From: Longimicrobium sp.
GTDB lineage: Bacteria > Gemmatimonadota > Gemmatimonadetes > Longimicrobiales > Longimicrobiaceae
Direction of reading: 5' to 3'
Length of the DNA stretch: 32,795 nucleotides
NCBI GenBank assembly: GCA_036387335.1
Contig: DASVTZ010000143.1
Coordinates: forward strand, 1-32,795
The position numbers were made by a program, and so were the translations under genes. Under the pieces are notes generated by a model. The model was not told the origin of the DNA, searched no databases, and saw only the letters and a program-made list of their open reading frames with translations. Shown here in pieces: positions 2,295 to 26,477 of this stretch (its first letter is position 1; every line of letters begins with the position of its first letter).

Positions 2295-2467
2295 CTCACG
2301 CGGAGACGCGGAGACGCGGTGAAGAACAGCGAAAAGCCTCACACAGAGAACACAGAAGGAACTGAAAGCCACAGAGAAAAGCCTCTTGTTTGTTCTCTCT
2401 GTGGCTCTGTGTCTCTGTGTGAGCCATGCAGTTGCGGTTCCTCCGCGTCTCCGCGTCTCCGCGTGAG
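2295..2467. repeat. Nested palindromic repeat, family E copy 1 (GCGGAGAC / ACACAGAG arrays)
   Basis: This fills most of the gap 2224-2478, where no gene is seen. The outer arms are short tandem arrays: CTCACGCGGAGACGCGGAG at 2295-2313 and its reverse complement ending in CCGCGTGAG at 2467. The inner arms are ACACAGAG-type arrays at about 2338-2375 and CTCTGTGT-type arrays at about 2392-2423. The element is thus a palindrome whose arms are themselves octamer repeats. Partial relatives lie at 26326-26456, 28235-28273 and, more degenerate, near 11975, 13665 and 18680. Confidence 0.85.
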
Positions 2468-2478
2468 GCAGCAGTTTT

Positions 2479-3944: not shown

Positions 3945-3961
3945 CCGCGCACCCCCCCCTC

Positions 3962-4133
3962 TGTCATCCTGAGCGACGCCCCACACCAGCCTCGCCCCGT
4001 CTCCACCCTTTGGCGCGGAGCGAAGGATCTACTGCGCGTGGCCGGACCTCCTGCCTCACCGGCTAGATCCTTCGGTCGCCGCCGGAGTACGGCGCACGGC
4101 AGGCATCCGTTGGGCGGCTCCCTCAGGATGACA
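3962..4133. repeat. Palindromic repeat, family T copy A
   Basis: The element is bounded by TGTCATCCTGAG and its exact reverse complement CTCAGGATGACA. Inside lies a second inverted pair, GAAGGATCTA near 4021 and TAGATCCTTC near 4064. Copy B follows at 4163-4354 in the same orientation. A third copy lies inverted at 20945-21141. The element occupies the gap between the TlpA and YbbR genes and contains no convincing gene. Confidence 0.9.
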
Positions 4134-4162
4134 GAAAAGGGGGCCGGCGCATCCCCCCTTTC

Positions 4163-4354
4163 TGTCATCCTGAGCGACGCGCCACACCGACCTCGCCCCG
4201 TCTCCACCCACTGGCGCGGAGCGAAGGATCTACTGCGCGTGACGAGGGGCCCGGAGTGCAGCGCCGTGCTCCTGCCACGCCGGCTAGATCCTTCGGTCGC
4301 CGCAGAAGTCCAGGGCCCGACCGAGATCAGTGAGGCGGCTCCCTCAGGATGACA
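4163..4354. repeat. Palindromic repeat, family T copy B
   Basis: Same terminal inverted repeats (TGTCATCCTGAG / CTCAGGATGACA) and same internal GAAGGATCTA / TAGATCCTTC pair as copy A. The stretch GCGCGGAGCGAAGGATCTAC is shared with it. The two copies differ most in the central part between the internal arms, suggesting relaxed constraint there. Confidence 0.9.
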
Positions 4355-4386
4355 AAAGGGGTGGACCGTTCGCGAAGAGCGCCGCA

Positions 4387-10602: not shown

Positions 10603-10625
10603 ATGGGTTCAGTTCGGTGTTGGGC

Positions 10626-12372
<1,747 letters not shown>

Positions 12373-13535
12373 ATGAAGGCGACGATTTCCGCTTCGGTGC
12401 TCTGCGAACAGCGTGTGGGCTCTGCACGGCGCTTGGGTGCGGCGCTCATGGTCGCTCTAGGCGCATGCGGGCCGGCTGAGGACGGAGCCACGATGCCGGA
12501 AACCGATCCGCGCGTGGTGTGGTCCGTCGCGATTCCCGCGCCGGGGAACGGCACCCCGATCGCGACGGACGACCGCGTCGTGATCGCGGGCGACTCCGGG
12601 CTCGCGGCGTACGACGCGCGGGGCGGCACTCTGCTCTGGCGCACGCCGGTACGGGTCGCGGGGGCAAACCGCGGGCTGGTTCTACACGGAGCCCGCCTCT
12701 TCTCGGCCGCGGTGGGTGGTGCGCGGGCGTACGACATGGCGACCGGCGCCCTGCTCTGGGAGCGCCTGATGCCGCAGGACGCCGCGCTGGATGCCACGGA
12801 TGCCGCCGCCGACGAGAAGGCGCTCTACATAGGCACACGCGATCTCCGGGTGCTCGCCCTTGACCGCGAGTCGGGCCAGCCGCTGTGGGACGTCCGCGTC
12901 CCGCGCGCTGACTGGCATGCGTCCAGCCGCCAGAGCGTGGCGGGGATCGTTACCTCGGGCGACACTGTGTATGCCGCAGTGAACCGTGACCTGACTGTGG
13001 GAGCTTTCGAGTCGGCGGTTGTATTGATTGCGTTCGACCGCTCCACCGGCCGCGAGCTCTGGCGGTACCAGACGGAGGGAAGGAGACCGGCACGGACGCG
13101 GCGCCCGCACTCGCTGGTTCGATGCTGGTGGCGGGCGGCGCCCGCGATGGGCATTCCGTCGCGGTCGACCGGTTTACACGACGCGAGGTGTGGCGGCGTG
13201 ACCTGTACGGCTTCGTGTGGGAAACACCCGCGGTGCAGGGCGGCCGTATCTTCCTGGGCACGCAAGCGGCCCGCCTCTACGCTTTGGATTCGTCGACGGG
13301 CCAGAGCGTCTGGGAAAGGGCGCTGGAGGGTGGCTCCACCTATCAGGCGGTCTGCGGGGACAAATTGGTCGTGGAGAATACCGCGGTGGAGTTGTTCGAC
13401 GCCGCAACGGGTAAGAGGTCGGGCCGGAAAATCGGTCTTGCGCCCGACGACTTCGTGAGTTCCGGAATCGCGGTATCCGGCAACCGCGCCTTCTTCGCCG
13501 GTGAGCGAAAGCTTTACGCAATCCGCTGCGACTGA
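12373..13535 (+). pseudogene. PQQ-like beta-propeller lipoprotein, split by a frameshift
   Basis: The first part reads from ATG 12373 with a basic region, a short hydrophobic stretch and a lipobox ending at C32 (MVALGAC), so an outer- or inner-membrane lipoprotein is expected. Propeller blades follow with recurring patterns: AYDARGGTLLWRTPV, AYDMATGALLWERLM, ALDRESGQPLWDVRV, AFDRSTGRELWRYQT. After 13077 the blade pattern jumps to the next frame (KETGTDAAPALAGSMLVAGG, ALDSSTGQSVWERAL) and ends in a TGA at 13533-13535. One missing base near the G/A run at 13075-13083 restores a 387-residue protein. It may be a real disruption or a sequencing error. Function is not known; the fold resembles BamB or PQQ-like proteins. 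Confidence 0.8.
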
Positions 13536-13556
13536 CGAAGGTTTTCACGGACAGGG

Positions 13557-13594
13557 CGGGGGTGGTGCACCGGAGTTTGGATGCACCGCCCCCG
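13557..13594 (+). terminator. Hairpin terminator after the propeller gene
   Basis: Stem CGGGGGTGGTGCA (13557-13569) pairs with TGCACCGCCCCCG (13582-13594), with one G-T wobble and a 12-nt loop. TTTCGTT follows. It lies 22 bp after the stop at 13535, in the right place to end plus-strand transcription. Confidence 0.7.
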
Positions 13595-13721
13595 TTTCGT
13601 TGTGGCGCGAAGTGGATAAAAAGCATCAAACCGGGATAGATACGGACGCGGGGGACCGCGCTGGCAGAGAAAATCCTCTGCTGTTCTATCTGTGGCTCTG
13701 CGTGAGATCGCCCTTGCCATA

Positions 13722-13761
13722 CAGCAGCATCGCGTCGCCGGACTAGAAGTAGTGGTACGGG
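13722..13761 (-). pseudogene. Relic of the queA 3' end
   Basis: Bases 13722-13740 (CAGCAGCATCGCGTCGCCG) are identical to 18748-18766, the last codons of queA. The next 21 bases match queA at about 16 positions. On the minus strand it would read YHYF-stop-SGDAMLL against que[14 protein letters not shown]. Orientation and frame are those of queA, and a TAG interrupts it. Similarity ends at about 13761 and just before 13722. It lies in the 13536-13870 gap, which otherwise holds a terminator and a weak family E fragment (about 13665-13705). Confidence 0.7.
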
Positions 13762-13870
13762 ATTCAGGTTCGGAACGGCGTGAGAGCCCCCGGCGGGCTC
13801 CGAAACGTCACATCCCCGCCCCGCGCGATGGCGGGCCGAGGATGCCGAACGTGGAACGCAGGAGCGGTGC

Positions 13871-15733
13871 TCAGCGGGACGCGGCGCGCGACCCGAGCCA
13901 GCTTTCCCGAAGTGCGCGCATCGCCGGGGTGACCGGAAGCCCGGCGCTCTCGCGCGTGACCACCTCGACGGATGGGTTCGCGACCAGGGTGACGGGTACC
14001 GTGAAGCGCATCCCCCGGCCGGACACCTCCATCCGGACCACCTCTCCCGGGCGGCGCCGGGCGAGGATCGCATGGAGCGCCGCGGCGGTCGCGGTCGGCT
14101 CGCCATCCACGCTGTGGATCAGGTCGCCCCCCGTGATCCCGGCCTGAAAGAGCGACCCGTTCTCCTTGGGACCGTTGACGTACACCGCCCCCGGATCGTC
14201 TTCCACCACGGCGCCCAGGTAAACCTTGTCGGCGGCTTTGCGGCGCAGCACCAGGCCCGCCGGCTCCAGGAGGGCGGCGAAGTCGGGCACCTCCCGGCCC
14301 TCCACGTACCGCGCAAAGAACTCGTTGGCGAAGCGCGGGTCACGGGTGACCTCGCCCAGGACGCGGCGCAGCTCCGCGTTCGTGTACGGCCGCTCGGGTG
14401 AGAGCTCCGGAGTCTGGAAGCGGCCGTATTCGCGCCACATCGCGCGCATGTAGTCGTCCAGCGTGAGCCGGTAGCGGGAGCGCAGGTTGAGGTCGAGCGC
14501 GACGGCCAGGGTGTGTCCCCACAGGTAATACGAGACGGACTGGTTCTGGCGGTTCGTCTGGTCCAGCGACAAGGCGCCGTCGGTCAGCGGCGCGTCCAGC
14601 CCCGCCTCCGCCGCGCTATGGTGCGCGCGTCCCGGCGCGTTCGTCACGGCCTCGATGTCCGCGCTGATCAATTCGGTGTACTCGGCGTCCGAGTAGTACC
14701 CGGCACGCCGCACCACCAGGTAGCCGTAGTACCGGGTAAAGCCCTCCACGAACCAGAGTTCCGGGGACTGGTTCTGCGCTTCGAAGTTGAACGGCTCCAG
14801 CGAGCGCGGGCGCAGCCGCTCCCCGTTCCAGGAGTGGAAGAGCTCGTGCGCCAGGGGGGCGAGGTTGGACACCCGGTCCGCGCGGCTCACCAGCGACTTG
14901 CGCGACGTCAGCACGGTGGAGTTCCGGTGCTCCATCGCGTCGCCCGACGCCCAGGGGAGATAGTCGGCCAGCAGGGTATACGTTCCCCCTTCGTACGCGG
15001 GCGGGGCGCCCCAGATGGCCAGCTCCTCGCCGACCACCTTTTGGGCCATCGCGGCGAAGCTGTCGACCTCGGCCTCGCCCGCCGTGTGGTGGACGGCGAG
15101 CCGCCAGGTCACCGTGTCCGCTCCGCGGCCGGTCCGCCAGCTCCGCAGCGAGGTCGGGCCGGCCTCCAGCGGGGAGTCCATGAACCACGCCAGGTTGGGC
15201 GCCGTGAACACGGCCGGATTCGCGGTGGGGAACAGCTGCGTCGTGATTCGCCATCCTGGGCGGGGATGCACGGTGAGCCGGATCGGTGCCGCTTCCATCC
15301 CGCGCGCCCAGATGAAGACCGAGGGGGGGTTCAGGTGCGCATGCGAGCGGTCGATGGCGGCATACGTGCCGTCGACACGGTCGCCCCAGAGCGCGTAGGT
15401 CAGACGAACGGTGCCATCGTGCCCCGCCACCACCCAACCATTGGTGGCGGTCCGCTGAACGGCAAGCGGCCGCCCGCGTCCGTCGGCCGCGCTGACGTCG
15501 AACACGCTTTTCGCGAACTCGTGAAGGGCGTACCGGCCCGGCGAGGAGCGGCTCATCCTCGCCTGGAGCGGCTCGGATGCCGCCAAGCCGCGGAACGTCG
15601 CCGTGACGCTCACCTCATGGTGCTCCGCCCGGGGGAAGCGGAGCTCGTACTCCACGGCTCGCGCCTGCGCGCCCAGCGGTGCCACGGACAGCAGCCCGGC
15701 GACGCCGAGCAGCCGTGTGATCACTAGCCTCAT
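13871..15733 (-). CDS. Secreted M61-family metallopeptidase with PDZ domain
   Basis: 620 residues. A signal peptide (MRLVITRLLGVAGLLSVAPL, cleavage near AQA) is followed by a beta-rich N-terminal domain. The gluzincin core has H296-E-L-F-H300 and the glutamate ligand E330 in ELWFVEGFTRYYG; the HELFHSWNGERLRP context is the M61 (glycyl aminopeptidase-like) signature. A PDZ-like domain lies near the C-terminus (LGAVVEDDPGAVYVNGP, AGITGGDLIHSVDGEP). Of several in-frame ATGs, the one at 15733 lies 6 nt after GGAG and directly begins the signal peptide; an ATG at 15775 is possible but lacks a clear site. The promoter lies on the palindromic operator at 15911-15945, shared with blaI on the other strand, so BlaI control is likely. 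Confidence 0.9.
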   Translation of the reverse strand: MRLVITRLLGVAGLLSVAPLGAQARAVEYELRFPRAEHHEVSVTATFRGLAASEPLQARMSRSSPGRYALHEFAKSVFDVSAADGRGRPLAVQRTATNGWVVAGHDGTVRLTYALWGDRVDGTYAAIDRSHAHLNPPSVFIWARGMEAAPIRLTVHPRPGWRITTQLFPTANPAVFTAPNLAWFMDSPLEAGPTSLRSWRTGRGADTVTWRLAVHHTAGEAEVDSFAAMAQKVVGEELAIWGAPPAYEGGTYTLLADYLPWASGDAMEHRNSTVLTSRKSLVSRADRVSNLAPLAHELFHSWNGERLRPRSLEPFNFEAQNQSPELWFVEGFTRYYGYLVVRRAGYYSDAEYTELISADIEAVTNAPGRAHHSAAEAGLDAPLTDGALSLDQTNRQNQSVSYYLWGHTLAVALDLNLRSRYRLTLDDYMRAMWREYGRFQTPELSPERPYTNAELRRVLGEVTRDPRFANEFFARYVEGREVPDFAALLEPAGLVLRRKAADKVYLGAVVEDDPGAVYVNGPKENGSLFQAGITGGDLIHSVDGEPTATAAALHAILARRRPGEVVRMEVSGRGMRFTVPVTLVANPSVEVVTRESAGLPVTPAMRALRESWLGSRAASR

Positions 15734-15906
15734 CATCATCTCCAGCGAGGGGTGAAGGGCCGAACCGTTGTTCATCCGCCCTGGCGAGAACGCCCGGCCG
15801 GAGCCACGCGAGCCCGGCCCCGATGGCGTCGTACGGCGCCGTGGACACGAGCATCCGGCGGGGATTCTCCATTTGCCTGCCAGCCTCCGCCGGCGCGACT
15901 TCCCCC

Positions 15907-15935
15907 AATATGAAAATGCATTGACACTATGTCAA
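15907..15935 (-). promoter_or_regulatory. Putative promoter of the M61 gene embedded in an operator
   Basis: On the minus strand TTGACA (15935-15930) is followed after exactly 17 bp by CATATT (15912-15907), a good -35 and a 4/6 -10. The -35 is the right half of the palindrome at 15911-15945, so repressor binding would cover the promoter. Confidence 0.55.
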
Positions 15936-15945
15936 TGCATTTTCA
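15911..15945. promoter_or_regulatory. 35-bp perfect palindrome, probable BlaI-family operator O1
   Basis: Arms TGAAAATGCATTGACA (15911-15926) and its exact reverse complement (15930-15945) surround CTA. The core is TTGACA-N3-TGTCAA. BlaI/MecI-type winged-helix repressors bind dyads with ACA-N-TGT cores. The site lies between the divergent M61 and blaI genes and is AT-rich against the background, as expected for a regulatory site. Confidence 0.75.
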
Positions 15946-16052
15946 CTCCAGAGTGACATGTACAGGGGCTAACCGCCCCCGCGCCGCCTCACCCGGCCCC
16001 TACTCCAACATGTCCGTCACTCTGGACGGGGGTGGGGGCAGGTGTTATCCTG

Positions 16053-16067
16053 TTGACAGGATGTCAA
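16053..16067. promoter_or_regulatory. Second operator O2 upstream of blaI
   Basis: TTGACA (16053-16058), GGA, TGTCAA (16062-16067) repeats the core of O1 with the same 3-bp spacing. Its left half would also serve as a -35 box for blaI, whose proposed ATG is at 16094. This is the usual layout of an autoregulated BlaI gene. Confidence 0.72.
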
Positions 16068-16093
16068 TCCATCAACACCATCCACTCCCCTCG

Positions 16094-16483
16094 ATGCCCC
16101 CCCCTGTTTCAGAGCTTGGCCGCCGCGAGCGGCAGATCATGGATGCGCTGTTCCGGCGGGGTCAGGCGACGGCGGCGGAGGTGCTCGCCGATCTGCCCGA
16201 CGCGCCGAGCAATGCCGCGGTCCGCGGGATGCTCCGCCACCTGGAGGACAAGGGATACGTGCGGCACGAGCAGGACGGACCGCGGTACGTGTTCTTTCCA
16301 GCGGTGGAGCGCGACGGGGAGAGCCGATCGGCGCTCGCGCACGTGCTCAAGACGTTCTTTGGCGACTCGCGCGAGAACGCCATGGCCGCGCTGCTCGGAA
16401 TGGGCGAATCGGAGATCTCCGACGAGGAGCACCAGCGCCTCTCCCGGCTACTCGACCAGGCACGCAAGCCGGGCCGCGGCTAG
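16094..16483 (+). CDS. BlaI/MecI/CopY-family transcriptional repressor
   Basis: 129 residues, the normal length for BlaI. The N-terminal winged helix reads ELGRRERQIMDALFRRGQATAAEVLADLPDAPSNAAVRGMLRHLEDKGYVRHEQDGPRYVFFPAV in pieces, with the conserved NAAVRGMLRHLEDKGYV helix-turn-helix and wing. The C-terminal helices (SALAHVLKTFFGDSRENAMAALL) form the dimerisation part that partner proteases cut. The frame is open from 15929, but an ATG at 16061 lies inside operator O2, so I choose 16094. There is no Shine-Dalgarno sequence before it, so it may be leaderless. It precedes the M56 peptidase by 32 bp, the blaI-blaR1 arrangement. Confidence 0.9.
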   Translation: MPPPVSELGRRERQIMDALFRRGQATAAEVLADLPDAPSNAAVRGMLRHLEDKGYVRHEQDGPRYVFFPAVERDGESRSALAHVLKTFFGDSRENAMAALLGMGESEISDEEHQRLSRLLDQARKPGRG

Positions 16484-16515
16484 CACGCACCCGCCCCCAC
16501 AGCACCCCCCCCGCC

Positions 16516-18654
16516 ATGTCCGAAGCCGCTGCCTTCCTCCTCCTCAAGTCTTCCCTCGTTCTGATCGCCGCCTGGGTGGTGGTGGCCGGCCTGCGGCTCA
16601 GGCGAGCATCCTCCGCCGCGCGACACCTGGTTTGGACGCTCGCCGTGTGCGCGCTCCTGCTCCTTCCGCTCCTTTCGGCCGGTATGCCGCGCTGGGACGT
16701 GCGCTGGCTGCGCGGCCTCGCTCCCAGCGCGCTCGCCTCCGCTCCCTGGATTCCGGACGGCCCGCTGCCGCAAACGCCGCCCTCGGAGCCCCTGACCGGC
16801 GCGACACCGGCGCCGGCGGTCGACGGGGCGCTTCCGGAGGTGCGCGCGGCCGAGCGTCCACTCGCTGCTGGCGGATACCTGGCGGCCGGGTACGGGATCG
16901 GCCTCGCGCTTGTGCTCGGATGGATGATGACCGGCTCCGCTCATCTCCGGCGGATGGCGGGGCAGGCGGAGGTCGTCACCGATCCGGAGTGGCTGGAGCT
17001 GATGCGCGAAGTCGAGTGGATCCTGGAGATCCCGCGGCCGGTGCGCCTGCTGCGCAGCCGGGAGGCATCCATGCCGATGGCCACCGGGATCCTGCGTCCG
17101 GCGGTGATCCTTCCCGTCGGCGCGGACGGCTGGGCGGAAGATCGCCGCCGCGTGGTCCTGCTCCACGAGGCCGCCCACATCGCCCGGCGGGACTGCCTGA
17201 CGCAGATGTTCGCCGCCCTCGCGTGCGCCACCTACTGGTTCCACCCCGCCGTCTGGTACGCCGCGCGCCAGCTTCGCGGCGAACGCGAGCTCGCCTGCGA
17301 CGATCGGGTGATCGCGGCTGGCGCAAGGCCGCGGGACTACGCCGAACACCTTCTCGAGATCGCGCGTTCGCTGCGTTCGCCGAGGCTGGTGGGCCCCGCC
17401 ACGGTCAGCATGGCGCGCCCGTCCCAGCTCGAAGGGCGTCTGCTGGCGGTGCTGGACGAGGTCCGTATCCGCCGCACGCTTCCCATCTCGTTGGTGCTCG
17501 GCGCCTGCGCCGTCACGGGCGCCCTGGTGCTCCCGCTGGCGGCCCTCGTCCCGTCCCCGCCGGCATCGGGTGTGGCGGTGGCGGAACAGAGTGCCCTCAC
17601 CACGGACCTCACTGGTGAGTTCGAGCGGATCGTGCCGACCGCTTCCGGAAAGACGCTCGAGCTTGACCTGGGCGCGGCCTCGCGGGTGCGGATCCGGGGA
17701 TGGGACCGGGGCGCGGTGCAGGTGCGGGGCTGGAGCCAGGAGGGGAGCCGCGCTCTCGTCGCGGTCGGCCTGGAGCAGTCGGCGACCGGCGCCCGCCTGG
17801 TGACCCGCGGGGAGAGCCGGGGGGCAGGCGCGCCCGGCACGCACTCCCTGGAGATCCGGGTGCCGACGCGGTACGGCATCCACATCCGCGGAAGTGGCAG
17901 CAGCCTGGAGGTCTCGGATTTGAGCGGTCGGCTGAGCGGGAGCACCGAGGGCGGCGTAGTGCGCCTGGCACAGGTCGGCGGGCGGGTCGATCTCTCCACG
18001 GGCGGCGCGGGCGCGAGCGTGACTGACTCCCGTGTGGACGGACGCCTGCTCACCGGGGGCGGCGCGGCGGACATCCGGTCGAACGTCGGGGACCTGGACC
18101 TCCGCGCCGGCGGCCGCACCCGGGTCGAACCCCGGGGGGCGCCTTCCGCCGCGCGCGAGTTCCGGCGGGGTGTCCGCGCGCTGACGGGGGTGGGCCGTGC
18201 GGCGCTCCACCTGGCCGAAGGCTCCGTCTTCGTCGACGAAGCGGACGAGGGCTTCGACGTGGAGACCGGCCGGGGGGATATTGTCGCCGGCCGCGTGGTG
18301 GGACACGCGGCGGCCCGTACGGCCGCTGGAAACGTGGAGCTGCGCGGAGTCTCCGGGTGGGCCGCGGTCGAGAGCGGACGTGGCGACATCCACGTGGAGA
18401 TGTCCGGGGTACGCGGCGCGAACCTTACGGCGCGGGCTGGAGGCGTCACCATCGTGCTCCCGGCCGCGTTCGCCGGCTCGATCGACGCGACGTCCACCGC
18501 CGGGAGGATCGAGAGCGATTTCACCCTCGCCCAAACCTCGTCCCCTGCCGGCGGAGAGCGGCGCTCGAGAGCAGGCGCGGCCGGCGGGCGCGTGACCATT
18601 TCCGCGACCGGGCCCGTCCGGATTCGACGAGCGAGCGGCGCGCGGACACGCTGA
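16516..18654 (+). CDS. M56 (BlaR1-like) membrane metallopeptidase fused to a DUF4097-like domain
   Basis: 712 residues. Membrane helices at about 5-25, 37-55, 120-137 and 323-345 frame a cytoplasmic gluzincin domain with H217-E-A-A-H221 (VVLLHEAAHIARRD) and ELACDD (258-263), the M56/BlaR1 signature. After the last helix, residues about 365-700 are a long extracytoplasmic beta-rich region of short repeating strands (VRIRGWDRGAVQVRGWS, LEVSDLSGRLSGSTEGGVVRLAQVGGRVDLSTGG in pieces, GFDVETGRGDIVAGRVVGHAAARTAAGNVELRGV). It resembles DUF4097-type adhesin/beta-helix domains. There is no penicillin-binding sensor domain. By analogy with BlaR1, an outside signal would activate the protease to cleave BlaI; the signal is unknown. 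It probably shares a transcript with blaI. Confidence 0.87.
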   Translation: MSEAAAFLLLKSSLVLIAAWVVVAGLRLRRASSAARHLVWTLAVCALLLLPLLSAGMPRWDVRWLRGLAPSALASAPWIPDGPLPQTPPSEPLTGATPAPAVDGALPEVRAAERPLAAGGYLAAGYGIGLALVLGWMMTGSAHLRRMAGQAEVVTDPEWLELMREVEWILEIPRPVRLLRSREASMPMATGILRPAVILPVGADGWAEDRRRVVLLHEAAHIARRDCLTQMFAALACATYWFHPAVWYAARQLRGERELACDDRVIAAGARPRDYAEHLLEIARSLRSPRLVGPATVSMARPSQLEGRLLAVLDEVRIRRTLPISLVLGACAVTGALVLPLAALVPSPPASGVAVAEQSALTTDLTGEFERIVPTASGKTLELDLGAASRVRIRGWDRGAVQVRGWSQEGSRALVAVGLEQSATGARLVTRGESRGAGAPGTHSLEIRVPTRYGIHIRGSGSSLEVSDLSGRLSGSTEGGVVRLAQVGGRVDLSTGGAGASVTDSRVDGRLLTGGGAADIRSNVGDLDLRAGGRTRVEPRGAPSAAREFRRGVRALTGVGRAALHLAEGSVFVDEADEGFDVETGRGDIVAGRVVGHAAARTAAGNVELRGVSGWAAVESGRGDIHVEMSGVRGANLTARAGGVTIVLPAAFAGSIDATSTAGRIESDFTLAQTSSPAGGERRSRAGAAGGRVTISATGPVRIRRASGARTR

Positions 18655-18683
18655 ACGGGCGTCGCGGTACCACGATCTCACAA

Positions 18684-18715
18684 AGAGGCACGGAGAAGAA
18701 ATTCTCCGTGCCTCT
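18684..18715. terminator. Perfect 14-bp hairpin between convergent M56 and queA genes
   Basis: AGAGGCACGGAGAA (18684-18697), loop GAAA, then TTCTCCGTGCCTCT (18702-18715). It is followed by CGTTCTCGTTTGTG. It lies 30 bp after the M56 stop and 26 bp after the queA stop on the other strand, so it may terminate both. The composition (CACAAAGAGGCACGGAG) also links it to the family E repeats. Confidence 0.65.
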
Positions 18716-18741
18716 TCGTTCTCGTTTGTGATTTCCTCTTT

Positions 18742-19782
18742 CTACACCAGCAGCATCGCGTCGCCGTACGAGAAGAAGCGGTACCGCTCCGCCACCGCCT
18801 CGCGATACGTCTCCATCGCCAGGTCGTAGCCGCAGAAGGCGGAGACGAGCATGAGGAGGGTGCTCTTGGGGAGGTGGAAGTTGGTGATGAGGTGGTCGAC
18901 GGCGCGGAAGCGGTAGGGGGGGCGGATGAAGATGTCCGTCCAGCCGGAGCCGGCGGGAACGGCGCCGTCCTCGGTGGCGACGGATTCCAGGGTGCGCGCG
19001 ACGGTGGTGCCCACGGCCCAGATGGAGCCGCCCGCCGCACGGATCTCGGCGAGGACGGCGGCGGACTCCTCCGGCACGCTGTACCACTCGGAGTGCATGC
19101 GGTGCTCGGCGGGGTCGTCCGCCTCGACGGGGCGAAAGGTGCCGACGCCGACGTGGAGGACCAGGCGCACGATGCGCACGCCCTTGGCCTCCAGAGCGGC
19201 CAGCAGCTCGGGGGTGAAGTGCAGGCCGGCGGTGGGGGCCGCGACGGAGCCGCGCTCGCGGGCGAAGACGGTCTGGTAGCGCTCGCGGTCCTCGGGGCCG
19301 GCGGCACGCTCCACGTAGGGCGGAAGCGGGACCTCGCCGTGGAGCTGCAGGGCGTCGTCCACGGGGAGGTCGGTGTCCAGGCGGACGATGCGCTCGCCGG
19401 CGGGGGTGCTTTCGAGGATCTGGACGGTGAAGCCTTCCGCGATCTCCACCGTGCGGCCGGGCTTCAGCTTGGCGCCGGGACGCACCAGCGCGCGCCACGT
19501 CCGCTCGTCGCCGCCCTCGGGGTGCAGGAGGAAGACTTCGGCCTCGGCGCCGCTCGCGCGCTTCCCCAGCAGGCGCGCGGGGAAGACGCGCGTCTCGTTG
19601 AGCACCAGCGCGTCGCCGGCGGGGACGTACTCCAGCAGGTCCGCGAAGCTCCTGTGCGAGCGCCTCCCCGTGGCCCGGTCGACCACGAGGAGGCGGCTTG
19701 CGTCGCGCCGCTCGGCCGGGGCCTGCGCGACGAGCTCGGGGGGAAGGTCGAAGTCGTAGTCCGAGGTCCGGCTCCCCTTCAT
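18742..19782 (-). CDS. queA: S-adenosylmethionine:tRNA ribosyltransferase-isomerase QueA
   Basis: 346 residues. QueA transfers and rearranges the ribosyl part of SAM onto preQ1-34 in tRNA, giving epoxyqueuosine. Motifs: [28 protein letters not shown] at the start (in pieces), [101 protein letters not shown]. The end [14 protein letters not shown] is the usual QueA C-terminus. The ATG overlaps the ruvB stop (ATGA). Tgt, its usual neighbour, is 6.9 kb away beyond an accessory block, and a relic of this gene's 3' end lies at 13722-13761. Confidence 0.97.
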
Positions 19783-20864: not shown

Positions 20865-20944
20865 CGCGTCCTCGCGGGAGTGCTACGGGGTATCTTCGGT
20901 GGGTTCGTGCGTGTACACCGTTTCGCGCACTTCGGTCCCCAATC

Positions 20945-21141
20945 TGTCATCCTGAGGGAAGCCGCCCTCCAGACGTCCGCCGTCCCCTGCCCTGCTGTTG
21001 CGGCGACCGAAGGATCTAGCCGGCGCGGCAGGAGGACGGCGCTGCGACGACGAGCCCCTCTGTACGCGCAGTAGATCCTTCGCTCCGCGCCACAGGGCGG
21101 AGCACGGAAGAGGTCGGGGCCGCGCGTCGCTCAGGATGACA
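20945..21141. repeat. Palindromic repeat, family T copy C (inverted)
   Basis: Bounded by TGTCATCCTGAG (20945-20956) and CTCAGGATGACA (21130-21141), with inner GAAGGATCTAG near 21011 and TAGATCCTTC near 21073. Next to the left terminus is GGAAGCCGCC, the complement of the right end of copies A and B, so this copy is inverted relative to them. It separates ruvA from ruvB in the 20865-21170 gap, which holds no gene. Confidence 0.88.
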
Positions 21142-21170
21142 GGATAAGGAGTGGCAAAAGGGTTGGGGCG

Positions 21171-23087: not shown

Positions 23088-23171
23088 CGGGCACCTCCAC
23101 GTACGCTGTAAGGGAATGGATGATCGATGAATATAGCCAGGGGTATGATGCCAAGCGAGTGCTAACGGCTG

Positions 23172-23274
23172 AAGTGCTAAGTGCTAAGTGCTAAGTCCTA
23201 AGTGAAAACGCACTCACGCACTCACGCACTCACGCACTGCTGTTCCAGCACTTAGCACTCAGCACTTAGCACTT
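23172..23274. repeat. Self-complementary heptamer/octamer repeat, family R copy 2
   Basis: AAGTGCT heptamers (23172-23192 and on) lead to about four tandem ACGCACTC octamers (about 23208-23238), then TGCTGTTCC, then AGCACTT heptamers in reverse-complement orientation to the first arm. Its reverse complement aligns with copy 1 at 10626-10722. It lies between yebC (upstream of its start) and the YciI gene, filling the 23088-23279 gap. Confidence 0.88.
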
Positions 23275-23279
23275 CCCCC

Positions 23280-23582
23280 CTACACCCCCGCCGCCTGCGG
23301 CAAAAACGCCGCGAACCGCGGATCGCTCTTCACCGGATTGAACCGCACGATCTCGAACTCGGCGATTCCGTTCTCGAAGTAGGGGTCGTCGCAGATCATC
23401 TTGGTCGCCTCCACCTCGCTGTCGAGCGTGGTGAGGATGACGCCGCCGGTGCGCGGCTCGCGGGGGCCGGAGAAGATCAGCTTCCCCTCGCGGTACAGCC
23501 CGTCCAGGTACGCGCGATGGGCGGCGGTGTGGGCTTCCACTTCATCGATCGGCTTCACGTAGCGCAGCAGGATCAGGATCAT
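23280..23582 (-). CDS. YciI-family protein
   Basis: 100 residues from ATG 23580-23582; a GTG at 23591 would add three. The pattern MILILLRYVKPIDEVEAHTAAHRAYLDGLY, GKLIFSGPREPRTGGVILTT and ICDDPYFENGIAEFEIVRFNP (in pieces) is the YciI alpha-beta ferredoxin-like fold with conserved His, Asp-Pro and Phe. The cellular role of most YciI proteins is not known. It stands alone: repeat family R lies after it, and the 23583-23811 gap before it shows nothing recognisable except room for two divergent promoters. Confidence 0.85.
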   Translation of the reverse strand: MILILLRYVKPIDEVEAHTAAHRAYLDGLYREGKLIFSGPREPRTGGVILTTLDSEVEATKMICDDPYFENGIAEFEIVRFNPVKSDPRFAAFLPQAAGV

Positions 23583-26325: not shown

Positions 26326-26456
26326 CTCACGCGGAGACGCGGAGACGCCGAGGAACTGCAACTGCGGGGCTCACACAGAGACACAGAGACACAGAGGAAG
26401 AACAGCAAGAAAGGGTTCTCTGCGTCTTGCAGGTCCCTCTGTAGCCCTCTGTGTGA
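26326..26456. repeat. Family E repeat copy 2
   Basis: CTCACGCGGAGACGCGGAG at 26326, then GAGGAACTGCAACTGCGG, then three ACACAGAG-type units, and CTCTGTGTGA at the right end (26456). It matches the reverse complement of the right half of copy 1 at 2295-2467, and has only one GCGGAGAC arm. Confidence 0.8.
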
Positions 26457-26477
26457 TGCTTTTCCCGCATCCGCAGA

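Follow-up and report, generated by a model that had tools for sequence, protein, structure and literature searches.

We consider it reasonably likely that, in the Longimicrobium sp. stretch of 32,795 nt analysed here (the window), a BlaI-family repressor controls a divergent M61 peptidase gene as well as its own operon with an M56 metallopeptidase. Two matching operators, O1 and O2, are both placed on predicted divergent promoters of the region (Table 1). What emerges is a version of the familiar penicillinase switch, not a system of a new kind.

Genes of the module

Pfam confirms the BlaI-family gene (PF03965), the M56 gene (PF05569) and the divergent M61 gene (PF17899/PF05299) that a sequence-only reading of this region had named. 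The blaI product scores 80.5 bits against a PF03965 cut-off of 22.6, placing it within the family. The M56 protein carries the HEXXH motif of BlaR1/MecR1 as HEAAH at residue 217 and ends in a DUF4097 toastrack domain; no penicillin-binding sensor domain was found in it, with Pfam returning only PF05569 and PF13349. Beside its catalytic and N-terminal M61 domains, the M61 protein also possesses an HEXXH motif (HELFH at residue 310), together with a C-terminal PDZ domain. Its start is probably an ATG at about 15733-15739, which would give an N-terminus that resembles a signal peptide by eye. As had been read earlier, the neighbours scanned include no beta-lactamase gene: none was found among the window proteins scanned, and the divergent gene is that for M61 instead. 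PADLOC models gave no match to the M61, BlaI, M56 or PQQ proteins, and BlaI on plasmids yielded only three weak matches, each below 34% identity.

Table 1. Features of the module and of its right-hand border, in window coordinates
Feature	Position	Strand	Description
queA 3′-end remnant	13722-13758		37 bp; direct repeat (89%) of 18748-18784; self-comparison E 1e-6
M61 peptidase	13871-15775	-	PF17899 E 6.6e-39; PF05299 E 4.4e-32; PF13180
Predicted M61 promoter	15907-15935	-	-35 TTGACA (15935-15930), 17 bp, -10 CATATT (15912-15907); almost wholly within O1
O1	15911-15945		two 16-bp dyads, 15911-15926 TGAAAATGCATTGACA and 15930-15945 TGTCAATGCATTTTCA, 3 bp between
Predicted blaI promoter	16023-16051	+	-35-like TGGACG (16023-16028), 17 bp, -10 TATCCT (16046-16051); O2 overlaps the -10; position inferred from relatives
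O2, full extent	16043-16077		35 bp; dyads 16043-16058 TGTTATCCTGTTGACA and 16062-16077 TGTCAATCCATCAACA
blaI	16094-16483	+	BlaI/MecI/CopY-family repressor, 129 aa; recognition helix SNAAVRGML; PF03965 E 1.5e-22
M56 (BlaR1-type) membrane metallopeptidase	16516-18654	+	PF05569 E 3.1e-28; PF13349 E 3e-7
queA	18742-19782	-	right border of the insert; PF02547 E 9.8e-135; 3′ end carries the repeat 18748-18784

Architecture of the operators

O1 had been taken for a perfect 35-bp palindrome. Its arms are indeed 16 bp each and 100% complementary across a 3-nt gap, but the CTA in the centre is not self-complementary, so that O1 is strictly 2 × 16 bp. The repeat of TTGACA-N3-TGTCAA that had been reported for O2 is present (TTGACAGGATGTCAA, 16053-16067) and forms the middle of the full operator. 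Two matching operators therefore stand, but this shared core is best read as the place where two dyads meet and not as the site of one dimer: the operator unit is the 16-bp dyad, because relatives carry it singly or serially. Upstream of four repressors from home-family genomes (L070, L072, L073 and L078) there is a single 16-bp dyad, TGCTA-N6-TAGCA, and other repressors of the family have two or three dyads of this type, 2-3 bp apart. The nearest repressors (L066-L068 and L069 of the same genome) show TGCTA-N6-TGACA, 3 bp, TGTCA-N6-TAGCA or something close to it, which is the same 16+3+16 layout as in O1 and O2; in L065 and L071 this operator is partly changed. Dyads of the layout lie upstream of 9/9 Gly-type and 32/34 Ala-type family repressors, and the reversed-sequence control for this repressor set gave 0/49. 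Half-sites in O1 and O2 are TGTCA, TGAAA and TGTTA, and the TACA/TGTA half-sites used as a test for BlaI/MecI/CopY operators are absent from both.

Two side observations concern the same layout and region. Upstream of the Gly-type blaI of L149, four 16-bp dyads of the TGCCAATGGGTTAGCA type stand in a row with 3-bp spacers and a 19-bp period. Between O1 and O2 lies a perfect 11-bp inverted repeat, TCCAGAGTGAC and GTCACTCTGGA (15947-15957 and 16016-16026), the right arm of which overlaps the predicted blaI -35.

That O1 and O2 might be functionless chance palindromes is very improbable. With up to three mismatches allowed, the window contains the core no more often than shuffles do (2 against an expected 2.52), which would suit such an origin; against it, no perfect inverted repeat of the window other than O1 has arms of at least 16 and a gap of at most 8, when even arms of at least 12 occur at a mean of only 0.16 per sequence in 100 first-order Markov sequences. 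The 16+3+16 layout shared with relatives, and the position of the exact core at blaI genes described below, likewise speak against it. Judged by these patterns, a chance origin is excluded for practical purposes.

Rarity of the core across the genome

A genome scan for the motif had been proposed as a check, with a common motif unlinked to the repressor as the refuting outcome; the scan found it to be rare and linked to repressors of this type. The exact 15-bp core TTGACA-N3-TGTCAA occurs at two places, O1 and O2, in 5,823,891 bases (reversed-pattern control 0). Of the exact 13-bp core TGACA-N3-TGTCA (TGACANNNTGTCA) the genome has three copies, in 3/3 cases just upstream of a blaI gene and again with a control of 0; the third site, at C157:52277, immediately precedes the blaI gene at C157:52322. 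When the 16-bp pattern was searched with up to two mismatches there were 39 matches against 46 in the control, and therefore only sites with no mismatch (O1 and the C157 operator) are meaningful. Sites with one mismatch on C96, C200 and C214 have no convincing promoter position by inspection. The genome harbours 15 PF03965 genes, and operators differ among its BlaI genes.

Elsewhere in the order, TTGACANNNTGTCAA was found in 14/154 genomes. Outside the home family it is regarded as an unrelated motif, because no BlaI was detectable within the flanks at any of the 14 places fetched (of 18). Separately, genomes of genus g12 share a conserved stretch with TTGACATAATGTCAA in L118-L121 and L129 and TTGACATCATGTCAA in L115; this stretch has no BlaI nearby and resembles coding or otherwise conserved context.

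The C157 site raises the question of ownership. The second Gly-type BlaI (C157:52322) might control or share the M61 side, with cross-talk between the repressors, as the only other exact TGACA-N3-TGTCA core of the genome lies at its gene and both recognition helices contain VRGML. We think this improbable: the outer half-sites differ (TGCTA at C157, TGAAA/TGTTA at O1 and O2), as do the helix residues SYSAV and SNAAV, the latter in the window blaI, and assigning the sites to the local repressor is more economical.

Promoters

On the M61 side, the minus-strand promoter that O1 had been said to cover (TTGACA-17-CATATT, 15935-15907) is present, and it is the sole sigma-70-like match in 15650-16200 (shuffles, mean 0.1). 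The match to the -35 is not independent evidence, because its TTGACA doubles as a half-site of O1, and the promoter departs from the standard geometry of blaI promoters. The predicted M61 5′ leader, about 160 nt long, likewise counts against control of M61.

On the blaI side, O2 had been proposed to supply the -35, and this was rejected on the promoter geometry of relatives. TTGAC lies upstream of the dyad in 41/49 VR-type family repressors, at a distance of 17-20 bp in 35/41, and at that distance the first half-site overlaps the -10. The window blaI has no TTGAC, but TGGAC is present 20 bp before the first dyad, 20 bp being the commonest distance in relatives. By this geometry O2 covers the predicted -10/start of blaI, and its TTGACA is a half-site, not a -35. 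In keeping with this, no plus-strand promoter using O2 as a -35 passes the promoter scan of 15650-16200.

Proposed mechanism and known systems

With operators so placed, BlaI dimers occupying both tandem dyads of O2 would block the blaI-M56 promoter, amounting to autoregulation, and dimers occupying both dyads of O1 would block the M61 promoter. A signal would activate M56, a membrane protease without a beta-lactam sensor domain; the active protease would, by analogy with BlaR1 of S. aureus, inactivate BlaI by cleavage, turning on both divergent sides. The protease cascade that we infer would thus consist of one protease releasing transcription of the gene for another peptidase, and M61 proteolysis is not implied.

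In Staphylococcus and Bacillus the gene order of the bla divergon is blaZ / blaR1-blaI. Repressors of the BlaI/MecI/CopY type are characterised by binding DNA as dimers and by inactivation through proteolysis or metal. Like that divergon, the window combines a BlaI-family repressor with an M56 metallopeptidase, a divergent output and operators in the shared intergenic region; unlike it, it has no beta-lactamase among the proteins scanned, an M56 without a penicillin sensor, M61 as the output, and a half-site of TGTCA instead of TACA. The term 'bla divergon' is used in PMC9834060, which has S. aureus BlaR1 cleaving BlaI directly, at the bond Asn101-Phe102.

From PMC7253601 come the TACA/TGTA half-site consensus and the metal-controlled CopY/CopR operators (RNYKACANNTGTMRNY, a 16-base dyad), of which two per promoter are common, mostly 24-39 bases apart. 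The 16-base dyad and the pairing of operators are shared with the window, in which, unlike those operators, the 16-bp dyads are 3 bp apart (19-bp period). For C. thermocellum, the available part of PMC8457756 describes four-protomer BlaI operators of tandem dyads, autoregulation, regulons of 1-3 targets, and the paralogues BlaI_0696 and BlaI_1845 with different motifs (GTCTAT and GACTAT). Paralogous BlaI with differing motifs, tandem dyads and very small autoregulatory regulons are thus common to both; the half-sites differ, and an M61 gene is not named for C. thermocellum in that part of the source. Closest are the VRGML-type BlaI/M56 pairs (L065-L068, L071 and that on C157 of the same genome), which share the helix type, TGYCA half-sites and the blaI-M56 operon; unlike the window they have a single operator and no M61 neighbour, and the M56 of L067 and L069 is longer than that of the window, with HEAT repeats. 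Among the papers listed for BlaI with M56 and Gemmatimonadota, for M61, for Longimicrobium and for queA/tgt insertion sites, none was relevant.

Conservation of the M61 link

M61 relatives and BlaI/M56 relatives occur separately elsewhere. A BlaI/M56 neighbour was found at 0/30 other M61 loci of the class (a sample from 72 genomes with a match) or 0/14 named loci, as judged with family-type queries that a distant BlaI could escape; conversely, an M61 neighbour was present at 0/20 BlaI loci with wide flanks. Nor is there an O1-like operator upstream of the family M61 relatives L086-L093 (0/8). A conserved M61 divergon was rejected for want of a second case in these class, named and BlaI loci, and since the link is present in one genome only, conservation is no argument for the divergon. 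The earlier claim of one repressor over both M61 and its own operon is made plausible by the overlap of O1 with the predicted M61 promoter and by the three genes standing together between the queA repeats, but is not supported by any M61 link elsewhere. The BlaI/M56 module is real, and its lineage-specific M61 output is probable.

These results also bear on the possibility that only blaI-M56 is regulated, with O1 an auxiliary or relic blaI operator and M61 unrelated, transcribed from an undetected promoter of its own. Such an arrangement would agree with the nearest relatives, which have one 35-bp operator at their own promoter and no adjoining M61, and with the M61 relatives, which stand alone elsewhere. 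It is harder to reconcile with O1 being the better preserved of the two operators and sitting on the M61 side, with a centre-to-centre distance of 132 bp (12.6 turns at 10.5 bp) that is out of phase for simple looping, and with O1 covering the one promoter-like site detected for M61. We regard it as unlikely, though a serious contender, and retain joint control of M61 and blaI-M56 by the local BlaI as the preferred reading.

Recognition helix and operator half-site

The home-family set comprises 75 BlaI loci (71/111 listed BlaI places, the remainder being weaker matches); removal of 6/75 as identical proteins left 69, of which 49 of the VR type were kept for dyad analysis. Sorted by the helix residue that follows VR, TGYCA half-sites are found with Gly in 9/9, Thr in 2/4, Ser in 0/1, Asn in 0/1 and Ala in 0/34, a rule that was formulated after these data had been seen. 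Under an earlier, looser rule the figures were Gly 9/9 and Ala 2/34 (Fisher p 1e-7), a p-value that overstates independence, because helix groups cluster on the tree. On that tree, which excludes L008 and L016, Gly requires at least four changes by parsimony, two of them forced by starred branches, and the sister repressors L071 (Gly) and L074 (Ala), with 100/99 support, have operators that differ accordingly. In the BlaI of B. licheniformis (1p6r; a weak match, E 0.06), a threonine is aligned with the position after VR.

A second family, held out from this analysis, supplied 62 loci from 92 places, 3/62 being removed as duplicates. TGYCA was found in 0/59 of its repressors (Ala 8, Gly 1, Ser 48, Thr 1, VL-type 1), and the looser rule found a changed half-site in 3/8 Ala repressors also. 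All dyads of L231, its sole Gly repressor, are of the TGCTA type; a general rule equating Gly with TGYCA half-sites was rejected on this contradiction, and the link between helix and half-site is therefore taken for an association at the level of the family and not for a code.

Other operators were seen in passing. A VL-type BlaI clade of family f1 (e.g. L004, L158, L159 and L166) has a quite different operator, CTACGGGnnAACCCGTAG, two copies of which flank a TTGACA -35. In family f2 (e.g. L232, L248 and L272), Ser-type BlaI often have one upstream 16-bp dyad, TGTTGA-N4-TCAGCA or TCAACA.

The variable-cargo site between tgt and queA

The tgt-queA gap of the window contains, in order, a PQQ-propeller gene, the 37-bp queA remnant, M61, blaI and M56, followed by intact queA; between the 37-bp repeats stand M61, blaI and M56 alone. 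In sister genomes the site is shorter: from the tgt-side sequence (window up to ~11,900-12,030) to queA there is about 0.7 kb in G010 and G017 and about 1.5 kb in G016, the gap of which holds an MreB-like gene. That of G013 contains a 336-bp copy of the queA 3′ end (92%), an AAA/DUF4276 pair recognised by PADLOC HEC-01 models, and then a Band 7 protein. G013 lacks the window BlaI (best match 62%) and the window M61 (best 34%), and its remaining BlaI proteins share 97-99% identity with those of the window genome. Cargo thus differs per relative (HEC-01-like AAA/DUF4276 pair, Band 7, MreB-like, short gene), and partial queA 3′-end copies occur twice at the junction. As the compared stretches indicate, the tgt-queA junction is a variable-cargo site in the genus (window 11955-18742; L198 9863-13811; L200 10124-11589; L199 3889-4611).

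On the simplest reading, which depends on the 37-bp, 89% repeat, M61-blaI-M56 came to this recurrent cargo site in a single piece, and such an arrival would speak for a working unit. In overall GC the module (0.710) resembles its flanks (0.717 and 0.702), which counts against a recent insertion, although its GC3 of 0.79-0.90 is lower than the 0.93-0.98 of most neighbouring conserved genes.

As a tentative and still doubtful synthesis, a BlaI/M56 switch without beta-lactam sensing may have taken a stand-alone secreted M61 as its output via a bidirectional operator pair, with the whole cassette inserted at the tgt-queA cargo site and the 15 BlaI partly insulated from one another by matched changes of helix (Gly/Ala/Thr) and half-site (TGYCA vs TGCTR). 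If true, one genome would contain a set of insulated membrane-protease switches, and a penicillinase-type switch would serve a purpose other than resistance to beta-lactams, through an identifiable output gene. The paralogous repressors of this genome, each type with operators of its own, are a natural set for the study of helix specificity and insulation, and tight clade-by-clade operators would allow regulon prediction for many unnamed BlaI/M56 pairs.

Short dispersed or inverted repeats of about 100-200 bp also lie in intergenic regions of the window (2295-2470, 26326-26464, 10616-10722, 23171-23286, 3947-4361 and 20944-21142), and these occur in sister genomes too.
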